DNA from: Amnibacterium setariae
GTDB taxonomy: Bacteria > Actinomycetota > Actinomycetes > Actinomycetales > Microbacteriaceae
Length of the DNA stretch: 64,000 bases
Direction: 5' to 3'
Assembly (NCBI RefSeq): GCF_003581425.1
Contig: NZ_QXTG01000001.1
Span: forward strand, 1,302,001 to 1,366,000
Position 1 is the stretch's first letter, and every line of letters starts with the position of its first letter. The position numbers and the translations under genes are program-made. Below, piece by piece: positions 18,339 to 26,498 of this stretch. The notes under the pieces are model-generated. The model was not told the DNA's origin. It saw only the letters and a list, made by a program, of their open reading frames with translations, and did no database searches.

Positions 18339-19226
18339 ATGTTCTTCCACAAGCAGGAGCTGCAGTTCACGGCGAAGCCGGACAAGCCGGATGCGATCTA
18401 CGCCCGGCGGATGCAGGAGGTCCTCGGCGGCCAGTACGGGGAGATCTCCGTGGCCATGCAGTACGCGTTCCAGGGCTGGAACATGCACCTGCCGGGCAAG
18501 TACCGCGACCTGGTGTTCGGCATCGCCGCCGAGGAGTTCGGGCACGTCGAGATGCTCGCCGTGATGATCGCGCAGCTCTACGAGAAGCTGCCGGTCGAGC
18601 AGTCCGAGGTCGCGGCGAAGTCCGACCCGGTGCTCGGAGCGATCATCGGCGGCACGGACGTGCAGGCAGCGATCGTCGCCGGCGCCGGCGTGCGGCCGGT
18701 CGACAGCAACGGCAACCCGTGGCAGGGGTCCTACATCACGGCGTCCGGCAACCTGCTCGCGGACTTCACCGCGAACGCGAATGCCGAGATGCAGGGTCGG
18801 CTCCAGGCCGCCCGGATCTACCAGATGACCGACGACAAGGGCGTGCGCGACCTGCTCTCGTTCCTGCTCGCCCGCGACACGATGCACCAGAACCAGTGGA
18901 CGGCGGCAGCGGCCGAGCTCCGCGCCGAGGGCTACGAGGACCTGCCCGTACCGAGCAACTTCCCGATCTCGAAGGAGGTGCAGGACGTGGAGTACAAGTA
19001 CATCAACTTCTCGGACGGCGCCGCCGCGAAGGAGGGCACGTGGGCGAACGGCCCGACGCCCGACGGCCGCGGCACCTTCTCCTACGAGGACGCGCCCTAC
19101 CCGAAGGACACGGCGGCGTTCCCGCCCCCGACGCAGCCGGACGAGCGGTACTACGGCACGACGCCGAAGCCGAACCTCGTCGAGAAGGCCGCCGGGACCG
19201 TGAAGGACGCGGTCAGCAAGAAGTAG
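18339..19226 (+). CDS. Manganese catalase
   Basis: The enzyme dismutates hydrogen peroxide using a dimanganese centre. In 295 residues the ligand pattern of Mn catalases is visible: Glu35 in GEISVAMQY, Glu66/His69 in EEFGHVEM, Glu150 in NAEMQG and His183 in RDTMHQNQW. The C-terminal tail (about 230-295) is extended and ends in a Lys-rich VEKAAGTVKDAVSKK, common in actinobacterial members. GAGAGGGGTGAC before the ATG supplies the ribosome site. Promoter elements in the 160-base upstream gap could not be fixed. A strong terminator follows. Confidence 0.93.
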   Translation: MFFHKQELQFTAKPDKPDAIYARRMQEVLGGQYGEISVAMQYAFQGWNMHLPGKYRDLVFGIAAEEFGHVEMLAVMIAQLYEKLPVEQSEVAAKSDPVLGAIIGGTDVQAAIVAGAGVRPVDSNGNPWQGSYITASGNLLADFTANANAEMQGRLQAARIYQMTDDKGVRDLLSFLLARDTMHQNQWTAAAAELRAEGYEDLPVPSNFPISKEVQDVEYKYINFSDGAAAKEGTWANGPTPDGRGTFSYEDAPYPKDTAAFPPPTQPDERYYGTTPKPNLVEKAAGTVKDAVSKK

Positions 19227-21016: not shown

Positions 21017-21583
21017 TCAGTGGCCGAAGCCGCCGGACTCCTGGATGCTCGACACGTCGGTGCTCGCGGTCGAGCCGTCGGGGGCCGTGTAGCCGGCGGT
21101 GTCGAGCGCGGACTGGAGCGACGCCTCGTAGGCGGCCGTCGTGTACGTCGCGCCGCTCACCGTGTCGACGGCGGCGGTCTGCTTCGCGAGGACCTCGGAC
21201 CGGAGGGTCGGCGCCGCCTCCTCGCTGATCTGCAACGACCGCGGGTCCGCCTGGTTCAGCTGCACGGTCGTGACCTCGGTGATTCTCCCGCCCGAGATAG
21301 TGACCTCGACCTGCGTCGTGCCGAAGCGCGTCGTCTCGGCCGTGCCCGTGTACGTGCCGTCCTTCGCCGTTGTCGATCCCGATGATGGGGAGGACGACGA
21401 GAAGCCCGACGCCGACGGGGAGGACCCGCTCGACGCCTGCCCGGACGACCCCGACGAGGACGAGGAGGACCCGCTGTCGTCGGCGGTCGCGCTCGCGACC
21501 GTGCCGGGGGAGAGGGGCCTGAAGAGCAGCACCCCGGCCGTGCCGAGCACGGTCGCGGTGATCACGATGGGCGCGCGTCGCAT
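21017..21583 (-). CDS. Exported FMN-binding domain protein
   Basis: The 188-residue protein has an N-terminal signal or anchor (about 5-22), a long Ser/Gly-rich linker (about 35-72) and a C-terminal FMN-binding domain (about 75-165). The flavinylation motif DTVSGAT places the covalently modified Thr at 146. In this family the flavin is attached extracytoplasmically by ApbE, which is encoded two genes upstream in the same operon. It is predicted to accept electrons from the membrane reductase encoded immediately upstream (13-base gap) and pass them on outside the membrane. Confidence 0.92.
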   Translation of the reverse strand: MRRAPIVITATVLGTAGVLLFRPLSPGTVASATADDSGSSSSSSGSSGQASSGSSPSASGFSSSSPSSGSTTAKDGTYTGTAETTRFGTTQVEVTISGGRITEVTTVQLNQADPRSLQISEEAAPTLRSEVLAKQTAAVDTVSGATYTTAAYEASLQSALDTAGYTAPDGSTASTDVSSIQESGGFGH

Positions 21584-21596
21584 GAGGGGCTCCTGA

Positions 21597-22976
21597 TCAG
21601 AAGGCGAAGGACTCGAAGTGGATGCGGGCCGCGGGCACGCCCGCGTCGCGGCAGGCCGCGGCGATCCCGGCCGTGAATGCCGCGGGCCCGCAGATGAAGA
21701 CGTCGCGGTCGGGGAGGTCCGGCAGCGCCCGGCGGAGGGTGTCGGCGGTCACGGCGATGCGGTCGCGCGACCCCAGCGCCTCCCAGTACCGCCCCCCGCG
21801 CCGCTCGACCTCGCCCGCGATCTCGTCGCGGAGGGCGATCGCCGTGCCCGTGCCGCCGCGGAGCAGCACGGCTACGTCCGCGTGCTCGTCGAGGTCGTCG
21901 AGCAGGCTCCGCAGGGGCGTCGTGCCGACGCCGGCGCCGACGAGCAGGACGCGGTGGCCGGTCGCGGCGTCCGCCGTGAAGCGCCCGTACGGGCCCTCGA
22001 CGAAGACGGGCGTGCCGGGCCGCAGGGTCGCGAGGTCGCGGCTGTGGTCCCCGAGGTCCTTGACGGTGATCCGCATCCGGTCCGCGCGCGGCACGGCGGA
22101 GAGGGAGAACGGGTGCGCCTGCCACCACTGGCCGCGGGTCAGGAACCGCCACTGGAAGAACTGGCCGCCCGCGACGGGAAGCCGGTCGAGGCGCCGGCCC
22201 TCGAGCACGATCGACACGACGTCCGCCGACTCCCGCCGCACGTCGACCACGCGGACGCGGTGCCGGAGCGAGCGGACGACGGGCAGCAGGACCCGCCAGC
22301 CGACGACCGCGGCGAGCAGCGCGACCCAGAGCGCCGTCCACCACGCGGTCGCCAGCGGGTGGCCGGCGAAGGAGGCGCCGGTGTCGACCTGGTGCTGGAA
22401 CGCGAGGAGCAGGGCGAGGTAGGTGTACAGGTGCACCGCCCACCACGTCTCGTACCGGAGCCGCCGCCGCGCCTTCCGGTAGGACGTGACCCCGGCGAGG
22501 AGCAGCAGGGCGGTGCCGACCGCAGCGCCGAGCATGCCGGGGTAGGTCAGCACCAGGTCCCACGCCTGCGCGAGCACCCCGGTCTGCGCGACGCCGGCGT
22601 AGCCGAGCACGATCAGCACGACGTGGGCGAGCAGCAGCCAGAGGCCCCACGGACCGAGCGCGCGGTGCCAGCGGATCAGCCGGTCCTGCCCGATGGCGCG
22701 CTCGAGCGGCCCGATCCGGGCCGACAGGGCGACGGTGACGAGCATCGCGTAGCCGGCGAGCAGCCCCGCCATCCGTCCCGCCGCGGTGAGGAGGCCGGGG
22801 AGGGTGCCGATCGAGGCGAGGGTCTGCGCCTCGATCGCGAGGGCGATCGTGACGCCGAGACCGAGCCCCGCCGCGGCGGCGAGCAGGTCGACCACGAGCG
22901 GGCGGCCGCGCCGGGGGAGCCGGCGCGGCGGGGGCGGCGGCGCGGACCGGGTCGGCCGCGGCATCGTCGCGGTCAC
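21597..22976 (-). CDS. Ferric reductase-like transmembrane flavoprotein
   Basis: This 459-residue protein has six or so membrane segments (about 25-235) carrying the ferric-reductase-like haem core, with histidines in RWHRALG, LLAHVVL and AVHLYTYLALLLAFQHQ. They are followed by a cytosolic FAD/NAD(P)H module: FAD-binding HPFSLSAVP, pyridine-nucleotide motif GAGVGTTPLRSLL and the terminal FICGPAAF. It should move electrons from NAD(P)H across the membrane. The GTG at 22976 overlaps the apbE stop as GTGA, so translation is coupled. Its partner acceptor is probably the FMN-binding protein encoded next. Confidence 0.9.
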   Translation of the reverse strand: MTATMPRPTRSAPPPPPRRLPRRGRPLVVDLLAAAAGLGLGVTIALAIEAQTLASIGTLPGLLTAAGRMAGLLAGYAMLVTVALSARIGPLERAIGQDRLIRWHRALGPWGLWLLLAHVVLIVLGYAGVAQTGVLAQAWDLVLTYPGMLGAAVGTALLLLAGVTSYRKARRRLRYETWWAVHLYTYLALLLAFQHQVDTGASFAGHPLATAWWTALWVALLAAVVGWRVLLPVVRSLRHRVRVVDVRRESADVVSIVLEGRRLDRLPVAGGQFFQWRFLTRGQWWQAHPFSLSAVPRADRMRITVKDLGDHSRDLATLRPGTPVFVEGPYGRFTADAATGHRVLLVGAGVGTTPLRSLLDDLDEHADVAVLLRGGTGTAIALRDEIAGEVERRGGRYWEALGSRDRIAVTADTLRRALPDLPDRDVFICGPAAFTAGIAAACRDAGVPAARIHFESFAF

Positions 22977-23791
22977 CGCGCTGCTCCGGCCAGGTCGTCC
23001 GCCGGCGCGGTGCGCACCGGCACCCCCTCCACGACGCGCGGGAAGCCGCTCGTGGCCACGACGCGGCCGTCGTCGAACGCGGTCCACGCCTCGTACCCGG
23101 CGAGCCCGGCGATCCACGCAGGGCCGTCCTCGCCCAGCACGAGCGCGGCGGTCGCGAAGCCGTCGGCGAGGGCGAGGTCGGGGCCGCAGACGGTCACCGC
23201 CGCGGCACCCGTCGCCGGCCGGCCGGTGCGCGGGTCGACGACGTGGTCGCCGCGCTCGTAGCGCCCGGAGGTGGCGACCGCGAGGTCGTGCGCGAGCAGC
23301 ACGGTCGCGAGCGCCGTCGGGTCGCTCGGGTGCCGAACCCCGACCCGCCACGGGGCGCGGTCGCGGTCCGACGAGGCGACCAGCACGTCGCCCCCGGCGT
23401 TGATCGCGAAGTCCGCGCAGCCCTGCTCGCGGAGCAGTCGTGCCGAGCGCTCCACCGACCAGCCCTTCACGTACCCGGAGGGGTCGAAGCGCCCGTCCCG
23501 CACCGCCGAGAACGCGCCCGCCGACCAGTCCTCGAGGGCGTCGCACGCGGTGATCACCTCCGCGAGGTCCTCGGAGACCTCGTCGAGCGGCAGCTCGCCG
23601 CGGTCGACGCGGGACACCTCGCTGCCGTACCTGTAGGGGCTGAACCGCGCGTCCACCTCGTGGAACCAGCGGACGGCCGCGTCGATCGCCGCGGCGTGGT
23701 CGCCGGGCCCCCGCACGTCGAAGGAGACGACGGTGCCCATCACCCGTTCCGCGCGGACGGTGCGCGGCCTGCGGTCGCTCGAGCTCGTCAT
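22973..23791 (-). CDS. apbE: FAD:protein FMN transferase (ApbE)
   Basis: ApbE transfers FMN from FAD to a Thr/Ser in exported FMN-binding domains. The 272-residue protein shows the family blocks FSPYRYGSEVSRVDRGE, FDPSGYVKGWSVERSA, INAGGDVLV, the active-site TSGRYERGDHVVDPRTGRPA and the Asp of ALADGFATAALVLG. No lipobox or obvious signal peptide is present at the N terminus, which is basic (RRPRTVRAERVMGT); either export uses another route or the start is further upstream. It is the first gene of the three-gene flavin operon and diverges from the OmpR-type regulator. Confidence 0.93.
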   Translation of the reverse strand: MTSSSDRRPRTVRAERVMGTVVSFDVRGPGDHAAAIDAAVRWFHEVDARFSPYRYGSEVSRVDRGELPLDEVSEDLAEVITACDALEDWSAGAFSAVRDGRFDPSGYVKGWSVERSARLLREQGCADFAINAGGDVLVASSDRDRAPWRVGVRHPSDPTALATVLLAHDLAVATSGRYERGDHVVDPRTGRPATGAAAVTVCGPDLALADGFATAALVLGEDGPAWIAGLAGYEAWTAFDDGRVVATSGFPRVVEGVPVRTAPADDLAGAAR

Positions 23792-23817: not shown

Positions 23818-23863
23818 TCGGATCCGATGCCTCCGCTGTGCACCCTCCATGAAGCGGATCCGC
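23818..23863. promoter_or_regulatory. Paired palindromes between apbE and the response regulator
   Basis: Two 10-bp palindromes, TCGGATCCGA (23818-23827) and GCGGATCCGC (23854-23863), share the core CGGATCCG and sit 36 bp apart in the 146-base divergent intergenic region. They are candidate operator sites for a regulator of one or both transcripts, possibly the adjacent OmpR-type protein. Confidence 0.4.
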
Positions 23864-23937: not shown

Positions 23938-24612
23938 GTGGCGGACGTGCTGGTGGTCGAGGACGACCCGCGGATGCGGACCCTCCTCGCGCAGTCGCTC
24001 GAGGGGGAGGGGCACCGCGTCGAGACGGCGGCGGACGGCCTGGCCGGGCTGATCGCGCTCCGAGGACGCGCTTTCGACGCCGCCGCGATCGACATCGGCC
24101 TGCCCGGCATGAGCGGCGTCGAGCTGTGCCGGCACGCGCGTCGGGAGGGGCTGCTGGTCCCGATCGTGCTCGTCACCGCGCGCGACGGGGTGGCCGACCG
24201 GGTCCTCGGGCTGGACTCGGGAGCCGACGACTACCTCGTGAAGCCCTTCGCCCTCGAGGAGCTCGCCGCCCGCCTCCGGGCGCTGCTCCGCCGCTCCGCG
24301 TCGGCGGGCGGCCGGGTCGAGGTCGGCGACCTCGTGCTCGACCCGCCGGCCGTGCGCGCGACCGTGCTCGGCCGCACGGTGCCGCTCAGCGTCAAGGAGT
24401 TCGGCGTGCTCCGCGCCCTCGCCGCCCGGGCCGGCGACGCGGTCGACCGGAGGACGCTGCTCACCGAGGTGTGGGGCGACCCGGACCGGTTCGACGGCGC
24501 GATCGTCGACCAGTACGTCAGCTACGTGCGGAAGAAGCTCGCCGCCGCCGGCGCGGGCCCGATGGTGGAGACCGTGCGCGGCGTCGGGTACCGCCTCGTC
24601 GCCCCGGCATGA
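23938..24612 (+). CDS. OmpR/PhoB-type response regulator
   Basis: The 224-residue protein has an N-terminal receiver domain (phosphoacceptor Asp52 in AIDIGLPGMSG; acidic pocket EDD at 8-10; Lys in LVKPFAL) and a C-terminal winged-helix DNA-binding domain (about 130-222, ending TVRGVGYRLV). The GTG at 23938 gives the exact family N terminus (VADVLVVEDD). It is translationally coupled (ATGA overlap) to the sensor kinase. Its position, divergent from the apbE operon with paired palindromes between, makes that operon a plausible target. Confidence 0.95.
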   Translation: MADVLVVEDDPRMRTLLAQSLEGEGHRVETAADGLAGLIALRGRAFDAAAIDIGLPGMSGVELCRHARREGLLVPIVLVTARDGVADRVLGLDSGADDYLVKPFALEELAARLRALLRRSASAGGRVEVGDLVLDPPAVRATVLGRTVPLSVKEFGVLRALAARAGDAVDRRTLLTEVWGDPDRFDGAIVDQYVSYVRKKLAAAGAGPMVETVRGVGYRLVAPA

Positions 24613-25961
24613 GACGACCGGTCCGCCACTGGTCGCTGCGGGTGCGCCTGGCGGTCGGCGCGGCCGCGGTCGCGGCGGTGCTGCTCGGCTCCCTGGCGGC
24701 CCTCGTCGCGGTGCAGGTGCGGGACGTGGCGCTCGAGTCGGCGACGCAGCTCGCCGCCGACGACCTCCGCCCGTACGCGGTCGACCTCCGCTTCGACCCG
24801 GAGGAGCGGCCCGACCCGTCGTCGCCCGGTCTGCTCATCCTCGTGGTGGACCCGGAGGGCCGGGTCGCGCACAGCTCGATGCCCCGTCCGCTCGCGGCCG
24901 CGGTGGCGACCGTGCAGGACGTCGGCACCGTCCGGACCTCGATCGGGCACTTCCGCGTCGTCCACCTCGCCGTGGACGCGCGTCGCGGGCAGTGGCGGCT
25001 CTGGGCCGCGCGCGACCTCACCGCGGGCGACGCGCTCGTCGGCGGCACCATGCTCACGCTCGCGATCGGCACCCCGGTCGCGGTCGTCCTCATCGGCGTC
25101 GCCGCCTTCCTCATCGCGGGCGCCGCGCTCCGGCCCGTCGACCGCATGCGGGCCTCCGCGGACCGGCTCCGCGCCGAAGGCGGGGCGGGCGCCCTGCCCG
25201 TCGAGGGCGGCGGTGAGCTCGTCGCGCTCGGCGTCACGCTGAACGGCCTGATCGACGACCTCCGGGCGCTCGCGGAGCACGAGCGGCGCGTGACCGCGGA
25301 CGCCGCGCACGAGCTGCGCACGCCGATCGCGGTGCTCGCCGCCCAGGCGGAGCTCGCGGAGCGCCGTGCCCCCTCCGCCGACCTCGTCGAGATCCGGCGG
25401 TCGGTCGACCGCCTCGCGCGGCTCGCGGACGAGCTGCTCGTGCTGTCGCGCGCCGAGGGCGCCGCGGCGGAGCCGACGGGCTCCTCCTCCGTCGCCGACC
25501 TGATCACGGAGGCGATGGCGGAGGTCGACCGCGCCCGCCTGCTCGCCGGTCCCGTCGTCGTGGACCTCGAGCTCGCGGACGGCGTCGACGAGACGGCCGA
25601 GGTCGCCATCGACCCCGCGGCCTTCGGCCGGGTGCTCGCGAACCTGACGCGGAACGCGCTCGCCGCCGAGCCCGCCTCCGCCGTCCGCATCCGCGTCGCG
25701 AGCGACGTCGACGCGCTGCGGGTCGAGGTGGTCGACGACGGGCGGGGCGTGCCCGAGTCGTTCCTGCCGTTCGCCTTCGACCGGTTCGCGCGGCCGGAGG
25801 AGGCCCGGGGGAGCGGGTCGCAGGGCGCCGGCCTCGGGCTCGCGCTCGTGCGCCGCCTCGTCGAGCGCGCGGGCGGCCGGGTCGTCCTGCGGAACGGCCC
25901 GGACGGCGGCGCGGTGGCCGAGGTCGTCCTGCCGCTGCAACGGGGGCGCGGCCGGGTCTGA
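24609..25961 (+). CDS. Membrane sensor histidine kinase
   Basis: This 450-residue kinase has a first membrane segment (about 15-37), an extracytoplasmic sensor region (about 38-142) that is short and lacks a recognisable ligand domain, and a second membrane segment (about 145-172). A HAMP-like linker, a HisKA domain with phospho-His234 in AAHELRTPIAVL and a HATPase domain (NLTRNAL, DDGRGVP, GLGLALVRR) complete it. It should phosphorylate the regulator encoded upstream. The signal is unknown. A strong hairpin begins about 20 bases after its stop codon. Confidence 0.95.
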   Translation: MRRPVRHWSLRVRLAVGAAAVAAVLLGSLAALVAVQVRDVALESATQLAADDLRPYAVDLRFDPEERPDPSSPGLLILVVDPEGRVAHSSMPRPLAAAVATVQDVGTVRTSIGHFRVVHLAVDARRGQWRLWAARDLTAGDALVGGTMLTLAIGTPVAVVLIGVAAFLIAGAALRPVDRMRASADRLRAEGGAGALPVEGGGELVALGVTLNGLIDDLRALAEHERRVTADAAHELRTPIAVLAAQAELAERRAPSADLVEIRRSVDRLARLADELLVLSRAEGAAAEPTGSSSVADLITEAMAEVDRARLLAGPVVVDLELADGVDETAEVAIDPAAFGRVLANLTRNALAAEPASAVRIRVASDVDALRVEVVDDGRGVPESFLPFAFDRFARPEEARGSGSQGAGLGLALVRRLVERAGGRVVLRNGPDGGAVAEVVLPLQRGRGRV

Positions 25962-25979: not shown

Positions 25980-26003
25980 GCGCATTCGAGGGTTCGAATG
26001 CGC
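25980..26003 (+). terminator. Perfect hairpin after the sensor kinase gene
   Basis: A 10-bp perfect stem (GCGCATTCGA with TCGAATGCGC) and a GGGT loop lie 19 bases after the kinase stop. It is nested inside a 9-bp outer inverted repeat, CCTGGGAGG (25966-25974) and CCTCCCAGG (26051-26059). The right outer arm overlaps the Shine-Dalgarno AGGAAGG of the next gene, so the whole could be a terminator or a translation-controlling leader. Confidence 0.6.
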
Positions 26004-26069
26004 CTGGCGCTCGGCGTGCACGCCGCGCGCCGCAGGGTGGTGCTCGACCGCCTCCCAGGAAGGACCTCG

Positions 26070-26498
26070 ATGTCCGTCACCCGCCCCGCCGCGACCCCGG
26101 GCGCACGCCGCGCCTACGCGATCCTCACCGGCATCGCGACCCTCTTCGTCTTCATCCAGTTCTTCACCTCGAGCGAGTTCATCCGCACGAAGGGCCACGG
26201 CGCGGAGGCCTGGACGGAGATCCACGGGTGGACCGCCTACGGTCTGCTCGTGCCCGCGCTCCTCGCGGCGGTCGTCGCCGTCGTCGCCCTCCGCCGGGCG
26301 GCCCCCGTGCTGACGGTCGTCGCCGTCGTCCTCTTCGTCGCCTCGGTCGGGCAGTGGGGCAGCGGGCACCTGATCAGCACCCTCGGCATGGACGGCTGGA
26401 CGCCCTTCCACGTCTTCTTCTCGTCGGTGGTCCTGGCGCTCGCGGTCTGGGCCTCCATCCGATCCGCGGCGCTGCGGCGGAGCGGCGCGAGCCGATGA
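26070..26498 (+). CDS. Small integral membrane protein (DUF6220-like)
   Basis: The 142-residue protein has four hydrophobic segments (about 15-35, 50-68, 78-95 and 108-128) and a His/Trp-bearing loop between the first two (EAWTEIHGWTAYG). The pattern, with a conserved His in a helix start and a second in PFHVFFSSVVL, resembles small haem- or quinone-associated membrane proteins of the DUF6220 type; this is a tentative likeness only. AGGAAGGA precedes the ATG at 26070. Its stop overlaps the start of the PAP2 phosphatase gene (ATGA), so the two are coupled. Confidence 0.75.
   Translation: MSVTRPAATPGARRAYAILTGIATLFVFIQFFTSSEFIRTKGHGAEAWTEIHGWTAYGLLVPALLAAVVAVVALRRAAPVLTVVAVVLFVASVGQWGSGHLISTLGMDGWTPFHVFFSSVVLALAVWASIRSAALRRSGASR

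Follow-up and report, generated by a model that had tools for sequence, protein, structure and literature searches.

A three-gene operon on the minus strand of a 64,000-nucleotide stretch of the Amnibacterium setariae genome (contig NZ_QXTG01000001.1, positions 1,302,001 to 1,366,000; hereafter the window, with positions counted from its first letter) very probably forms an MsrQ-like/NADPH oxidase (NOX)-like flavinylation electron outlet, as its domains, conservation, and fold matches suggest. The operon (21017-23791) consists of the tightly packed genes for ApbE, the flavin adenine dinucleotide (FAD):protein flavin mononucleotide (FMN) transferase, for a putative transmembrane electron carrier, and for an exported FMN_bind protein. 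Since it matches the make-up of the class described by Meheust et al (2021), the operon as such is not new; it adds a further conserved member to a class of flavin-based outlets for electrons that is already in the literature. Where flavinylation takes place would matter more. The FMN_bind protein displays a signal-like N-terminus and ApbE does not. Thus, the usual extracytosolic route does not fit, and action of ApbE in the cytosol, before its substrate is exported, is the most likely reading, which we give about an even chance.

Results

The operon probably encodes a conserved flavin relay

The three genes follow each other with gaps of 8 nt (apbE to membrane gene) and 13 nt (membrane gene to Ser-rich FMN_bind gene). 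The membrane protein, whose gene sits between apbE and the FMN_bind gene, matches Ferric_reduct (PF01794; E 1.2e-16, 61.3 bits versus a 28-bit cut-off) and FAD_binding_8 (PF08022; E 3.4e-6). His100, His114, His178, and His191, the predicted ligands of two haem b in two pairs, are conserved without exception in the 40 aligned proteins (the window and 39 of the 40 family loci; the split protein of L066 was excluded by length), as are Cys425 and several glycines of the FAD/NAD region, and a second alignment (n = 20) agrees on the invariant residues. The two-haem site is thus putative, combining predicted ligands with a computed invariance. The AlphaFold model (mean predicted local distance difference test score, pLDDT, 86.8) finds its best PDB match in SpNOX (8qt6; E 2.4e-16, 17% identity, TM-score 0.66 by query), and its fold also matches ferredoxin reductases.

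The FMN_bind protein is composed of a basic and then hydrophobic N-terminus (anchor or signal), a linker rich in Ser, Ala, Pro, and Thr, and an FMN_bind domain carrying the SGAT attachment motif. Thr146 of this motif (in DTVSGATYTT) is invariant across all 21 aligned FMN proteins. The domain model matches domain 2 of SaFMN3 (8p2a) with a TM-score of 0.92 by target and 44% identity.

The membrane-protein search matched in 82 of 120 family genomes, of which only 50 reached E 1e-50 or better; the weaker matches run mostly through the NAD domain. From the 55 strong rows outside the own genome, 40 (from 39 genomes) serve as family loci, while the wider loci are the best 80 of at least 591 relatives in public genome contigs, some of these being too short for neighbours. 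An FMN_bind gene lies near the membrane gene in 39/40 family and 73/80 wider loci, and an ApbE gene in 36/40 and 60/80. Within the genus, ApbE and FMN_bind genes occur in 7/7 genomes, and a membrane protein of the window type (at least 75% identity) in five of them, own genome included.

Consequently, the three coupled genes, the visible SGAT site, and the three-component flavin relay proposed by an initial annotation of this DNA are well supported by Pfam matches and gene spacing, by intact predicted haem and flavin sites, by folds, relatives, and a published class. Conservation in relatives, whose absence that annotation had named beforehand as part of a refutation, was found (39/40 and 36/40, as above). 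The RNF/NQR systems that it also mentioned can be set aside for this operon, as Pfam finds no such domains in it.

In the mechanism that we propose, NAD(P)H would reduce the FAD bound in the cytosolic part of the membrane protein, as its domain content suggests, and electrons would cross the membrane via two haem b held by the four invariant histidines. They would then reach an FMN that, by homology to SaFMN3, is probably joined by a phosphoester to Thr146 of the membrane-anchored FMN_bind domain, and pass from there to an acceptor outside the cell. ApbE would form the covalent link, most likely in the cytosol prior to export, at about even chances, and the divergent two-component system would probably control the operon.

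ApbE is leaderless in the window and in its relatives

Leaders were scored by Kyte-Doolittle hydropathy (best 15-residue mean, threshold 1.6) in place of a trained signal predictor. The window ApbE shows no N-terminal signal or hydrophobic segment, with a maximum of 0.64 in the first 40 residues, in contrast to 2.25 in the first 60 residues of the FMN_bind protein. Moreover, the 127 in-frame codons upstream of apbE contain no ATG, GTG, or TTG and are Arg/Pro-rich, not hydrophobic.

The same pattern holds across 97 ApbE rows, comprising 36 family loci, 60 wider loci, and the second ApbE of the own genome, whose N-terminus was read separately because its domain is matched only from inside. Both N-termini of the window itself were likewise read apart from the scans of 97 ApbE and 112 FMN rows. 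In a first scan, ApbEs were covered up to 70 residues before the domain and FMN proteins over the whole frame, because the long linker sets the anchor far from the domain. Under identical limits, signal-like segments appear in 0/97 ApbEs and 74/112 FMN proteins within 70 residues, in 0/97 and 102/112 within 100 residues, in 1/97 and 107/112 within 130 residues, and in 4/97 and 111/112 over the whole frame. The four scoring ApbE rows (L046, L058, L132, and L142) have overlong frames of 446-582 aa that run far back past the domain start, and their segments are therefore taken as spurious; the sole FMN row under the threshold (L132) is an overlong frame as well. Gene spacing leads to the same result. 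An FMN_bind or membrane gene lies upstream of apbE on the same strand in 92 of 96 loci, and in 79 of these the ApbE domain starts no more than 75 nt after the stop of that gene, which leaves no room for a signal unless the genes overlap.

As controls, E. coli Ftp shows a hydrophobic segment (1.99), and exported ApbEs were detected in 25 of 30 phylum loci, with five not passing. Among 30 class loci drawn from 148 genomes, no ApbE is signal-like (highest value 1.48), nor is any of nine in the genus (highest 1.56; nine of ten new loci, L230 being left out). These phylum, class, and genus samples are best-scoring loci, not random ones.

A profile search of the own genome yields two ApbE genes, both leaderless, and there are two FMN_bind genes, both with a hydrophobic N-terminus. 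One of these N-termini ends in LAGC, which we take to be lipobox-like. This second, lipoprotein-like FMN_bind protein likewise has only leaderless ApbEs available. Its gene belongs to a second flavin system (L007 5960-7725; contig C2, ~328-330 kb), where it stands beside a 511-aa protein that, by reading, looks like NqrB/RnfD fused to a NAD-binding domain, with no family matched by Pfam; the 16-kb stretch holding this system gives no apbE match. The second apbE lies elsewhere (L006 7650-8528; contig C1, ~1.28 Mb), with no flavin-protein neighbours seen. In two genomes of the same genus (G097 and G402), an apbE adjoins a lipoprotein-like FMN_bind gene.

Flavin may be attached before export

For the sampled actinobacterial outlets as a whole, we propose, at about even odds, that FMN is attached to the substrate by an ApbE in the cytosol, either ahead of export or in its course, and that the flavin-bearing chain then crosses the membrane. 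Such inside-first flavinylation would need no FAD export and would reverse the accepted order of export followed by flavinylation outside. If this is true, the bulky chain with its flavin must be let through by a membrane translocase, and an FAD exporter is not something that every such system requires. The initial annotation overlooked the missing leader; its relay is well supported, while the usual flavinylation outside the cell does not fit. A literature search, judged by titles and the starts of abstracts and covering few subscription papers, returned none on leaderless ApbEs with exported targets in actinobacteria.

Published work favours an outside location. The ApbEs studied in most detail work outside the cell, where they depend on a supply of FAD (Listeria paper, PMC9973259; PMC12052999), most ApbEs seem secreted according to a 2025 review (PMC12052999), and the SaFMN3 paper assumes an outside transferase (PMC10339131). 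The window's ApbE might accordingly leave the cell by a signal-less exit route, or another flavin transferase, missed by the ApbE profile, might act there. We consider this rather unlikely: neither of the two own-genome ApbEs found by the profile search has a signal, no EetB-type FAD exporter (PF07456) was found in the own genome (0/1), and the relatives behave the same, with no signal among the 97 rows within 70 residues or the 30 best-scoring class-wide loci.

The leaderless ApbE would also agree with an exported FMN domain that binds FMN non-covalently, ApbE serving another, cytosolic protein, as is the case for the cytosolic ApbE of Klebsiella, which targets a soluble fumarate reductase (PMC12052999). 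The invariance of Thr146 (21/21), the proximity of apbE in 36/40 family and 60/80 wider loci, and the covalent FMN carried by the close homologue SaFMN3 upon co-expression with ApbE (PMC10339131) make this very improbable.

The electron acceptor

The acceptor is most likely ferric iron, oxygen, or quinone-like molecules outside the cell. Iron is suggested by the gene neighbourhoods. A relative of the iron transporter VIT1 is the most shared identified non-core neighbour, present in 17 family loci by clustering and, when searched for directly, within ~6 kb of 18/40, one of which was verified with Pfam. Equally widespread among family loci is an aminotransferase gene, found mainly in those of Streptomyces, which looks like plain synteny. 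Further, 153 MsrQ-like clusters contain VIT1 (Meheust et al, PMC8238504), and an FMN-binding protein is part of an iron-limitation cluster of Bifidobacterium (PMC5449479). In an assimilatory ferric reductase, Fe(III) would be reduced outside and the ferrous iron then be taken up or moved by a transporter. This reading is possible, if somewhat short of an even chance, as VIT1 is not matched in the window, the own genome's VIT1 genes sit on another contig, and VIT1 occurs in 0/80 wider loci, among them those of Streptomyces and Solirubrobacterales that fall into the window's group in the tree. The link to an iron transporter is real for part of the family and absent at the window locus, where an iron role would be conjectural. 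Eight loci (L044, L049, L050, L051, L059, L062, L063, and L071) also carry a gene for a P-type ATPase near the operon, verified with Pfam in L049, which may again point to metal handling.

Alternatively, the system could reduce oxygen like a NADPH oxidase, either producing superoxide or peroxide outside or dumping excess reductant on oxygen. SpNOX as the best structural match, the ability of SaFMN3 to use dioxygen (PMC12052999), and a manganese catalase gene ~1.8 kb away are in line with this view. A plain NOX needs no tethered FMN protein, however, and manganese catalase is found in 0/40 family loci (~6 kb each side), so that we regard oxygen reduction as doubtful. The catalase gene (18339-19226, past the FMN_bind gene) is for the same count not taken as part of the system, and neither is a neighbouring rhodanese gene, found in one of the 40 family loci (L067, E 4e-4).

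Points that weigh against the scheme

Several observations speak against the outlet and inside-first flavinylation as outlined. With ApbE in the cytosol and its substrate outside, it must still be explained how the flavinylated chain is exported. Only 46/109 FMN proteins have a twin-arginine pair ahead of the hydrophobic segment, and 25/109 the RR-x-phi-phi pattern; twin-arginine translocation (Tat) is thus unsupported as a general route for the folded flavoprotein and may serve some members. The outside topology of the FMN protein is itself a prediction from its basic, hydrophobic N-terminus, and the model of this protein is weak beyond the domain (mean pLDDT 63.7), being confident over the domain only. 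In the membrane protein, NAD_binding_1 (PF00175) reaches 20.9 bits, just below the 22-bit cut-off. At the level of loci, the membrane gene of G016, a genome from the same genus, lacks an adjacent apbE, and VIT1 shows the uneven distribution described above (18/40 family loci versus 0/80 wider loci and the window).

Regulation, neighbouring genes, and origin

The features of the locus are collected in Table 1.

Table 1. Coordinates of the operon, its attachment motif, and the divergent regulatory genes in the window
Feature	Position	Strand	Evidence
apbE, FAD:protein FMN transferase, 272 aa, first gene of the operon	22973-23791	-	PF02424, E 1.7e-43
NOX/MsrQ-like transmembrane protein, 455 aa, C-terminal FAD and NAD(P)H domains	21597-22964	-	PF01794, PF08022
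Exported FMN_bind protein, 188 aa, Ser-rich	21017-21583	-	PF04205, residues 88-161, E 1e-8
Codons of the S-G-A-T flavin attachment motif, residues 143-146	21146-21157	-	Sequence, alignment; counted from gene start 21583
OmpR-type response regulator, divergent from the operon	23938-24612	+	PF00072, PF00486
Sensor histidine kinase	24609-25961 (start inferred; scanned from 24630)	+	HisKA, HATPase_c; HAMP below cut-off
Two CGGATCCG words in the divergent intergenic region	23819-23862		Not conserved, probably incidental

The adjacent two-component system noted in the initial annotation is confirmed by Pfam as a regulator and a kinase gene, and from its adjacency it probably controls the operon. A regulator and a kinase gene occur within 3.5 kb in 26/40 family loci. 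With a regulator scoring >190 bits on a profile of the window regulator's relatives, together with a kinase and within the same distance, the counts are 27/80 wider loci and 15/40 family loci, the latter partly by construction as those loci built the profile. The paired palindromes that were proposed to take part exist, with CGGATCCG occurring at 23819 and 23855, 36 bp apart. Because the word is at background frequency in the window (8 copies versus 6.8 expected) and not conserved in the genus, they are ruled out as an operator: the same-genus locus L038 lacks it in the corresponding intergenic region, though not elsewhere, and loci L079 and L082 lack it throughout. Thus, regulation remains plausible from adjacency and the palindromes drop out of it.

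Directly after the histidine kinase gene, a small membrane protein is encoded (25998-26498; 166 aa as called, four helices by eye), for which Pfam matched no family. Two of its histidines are invariant in 5/5 aligned relatives, and 4/40 family loci have a relative close to the operon. It could be a candidate small haem protein of the operon's system.

A quick tree built from 120 membrane proteins places the window and two other sequences of its genus together with two from Streptomyces and three from Solirubrobacterales (Shimodaira-Hasegawa-like approximate likelihood ratio test, SH-aLRT, 99); the remaining 37 family rows fall outside this group. The apbE-first order is common to the window, two Streptomyces loci, and one Solirubrobacter locus; the Solirubrobacterales locus L081 has a different order. 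Horizontal transfer is likely. Some Streptomyces loci, among them L126, L128, L130, L145, and L149, carry the membrane-protein gene and the FMN protein twice, in tandem within one cluster, and the second FMN protein seems to contain several FMN domains.

Comparison with known systems

Canonical extracytosolic ApbEs such as Ftp and FmnB have a signal peptide or lipobox, in contrast to both ApbEs of the own genome. The extracellular electron transfer system of Listeria (FmnB, PplA, EetB, and FmnA) likewise uses an ApbE-flavinylated outside carrier in a Gram-positive cell, yet it has the extracytosolic FmnB and a dedicated FAD exporter of the EetB family, which was not found in the window's genome. 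Its electron donor is Ndh2 and quinone, unlike the membrane protein of the window.

SaFMN3 of Streptomyces azureus (8p2a, PMC10339131) shares the FMN_bind fold, a predicted N-terminal membrane segment, and an adjoining apbE with the window, and differs in having three FMN domains instead of one. Its authors regard this anchor as consistent with an outside ApbE (PMC10339131), whereas none of our 97 ApbE rows, Streptomyces loci included, is signal-like within 70 residues.

SpNOX, the NADPH oxidase of Streptococcus pneumoniae, has the same overall fold, with a membrane part joined to a FAD/NAD domain. The two-haem arrangement is presumably common to both proteins. Sequence identity is low, as given above, and the operon differs by adding a dedicated FMN acceptor protein and ApbE.

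The closest counterpart is the MsrQ-like system, defined in eLife as a PF01794 gene in a flavinylation cluster (Meheust et al, 2021; PMC8238504). It was described in 1797 clusters from 1468 genomes, broadly conserved in Actinobacteria and typically with apbE and FMN_bind, 1437 clusters having a NAD-binding domain (PMC8238504); its passages on the class do not take up on which side of the membrane ApbE is located. The window places apbE first and has no VIT1 beside the operon. The parts list of PF01794, apbE, and FMN_bind is the same: the PF01794 gene, apbE and FMN_bind above cut-off, and the two predicted histidine pairs are all present.

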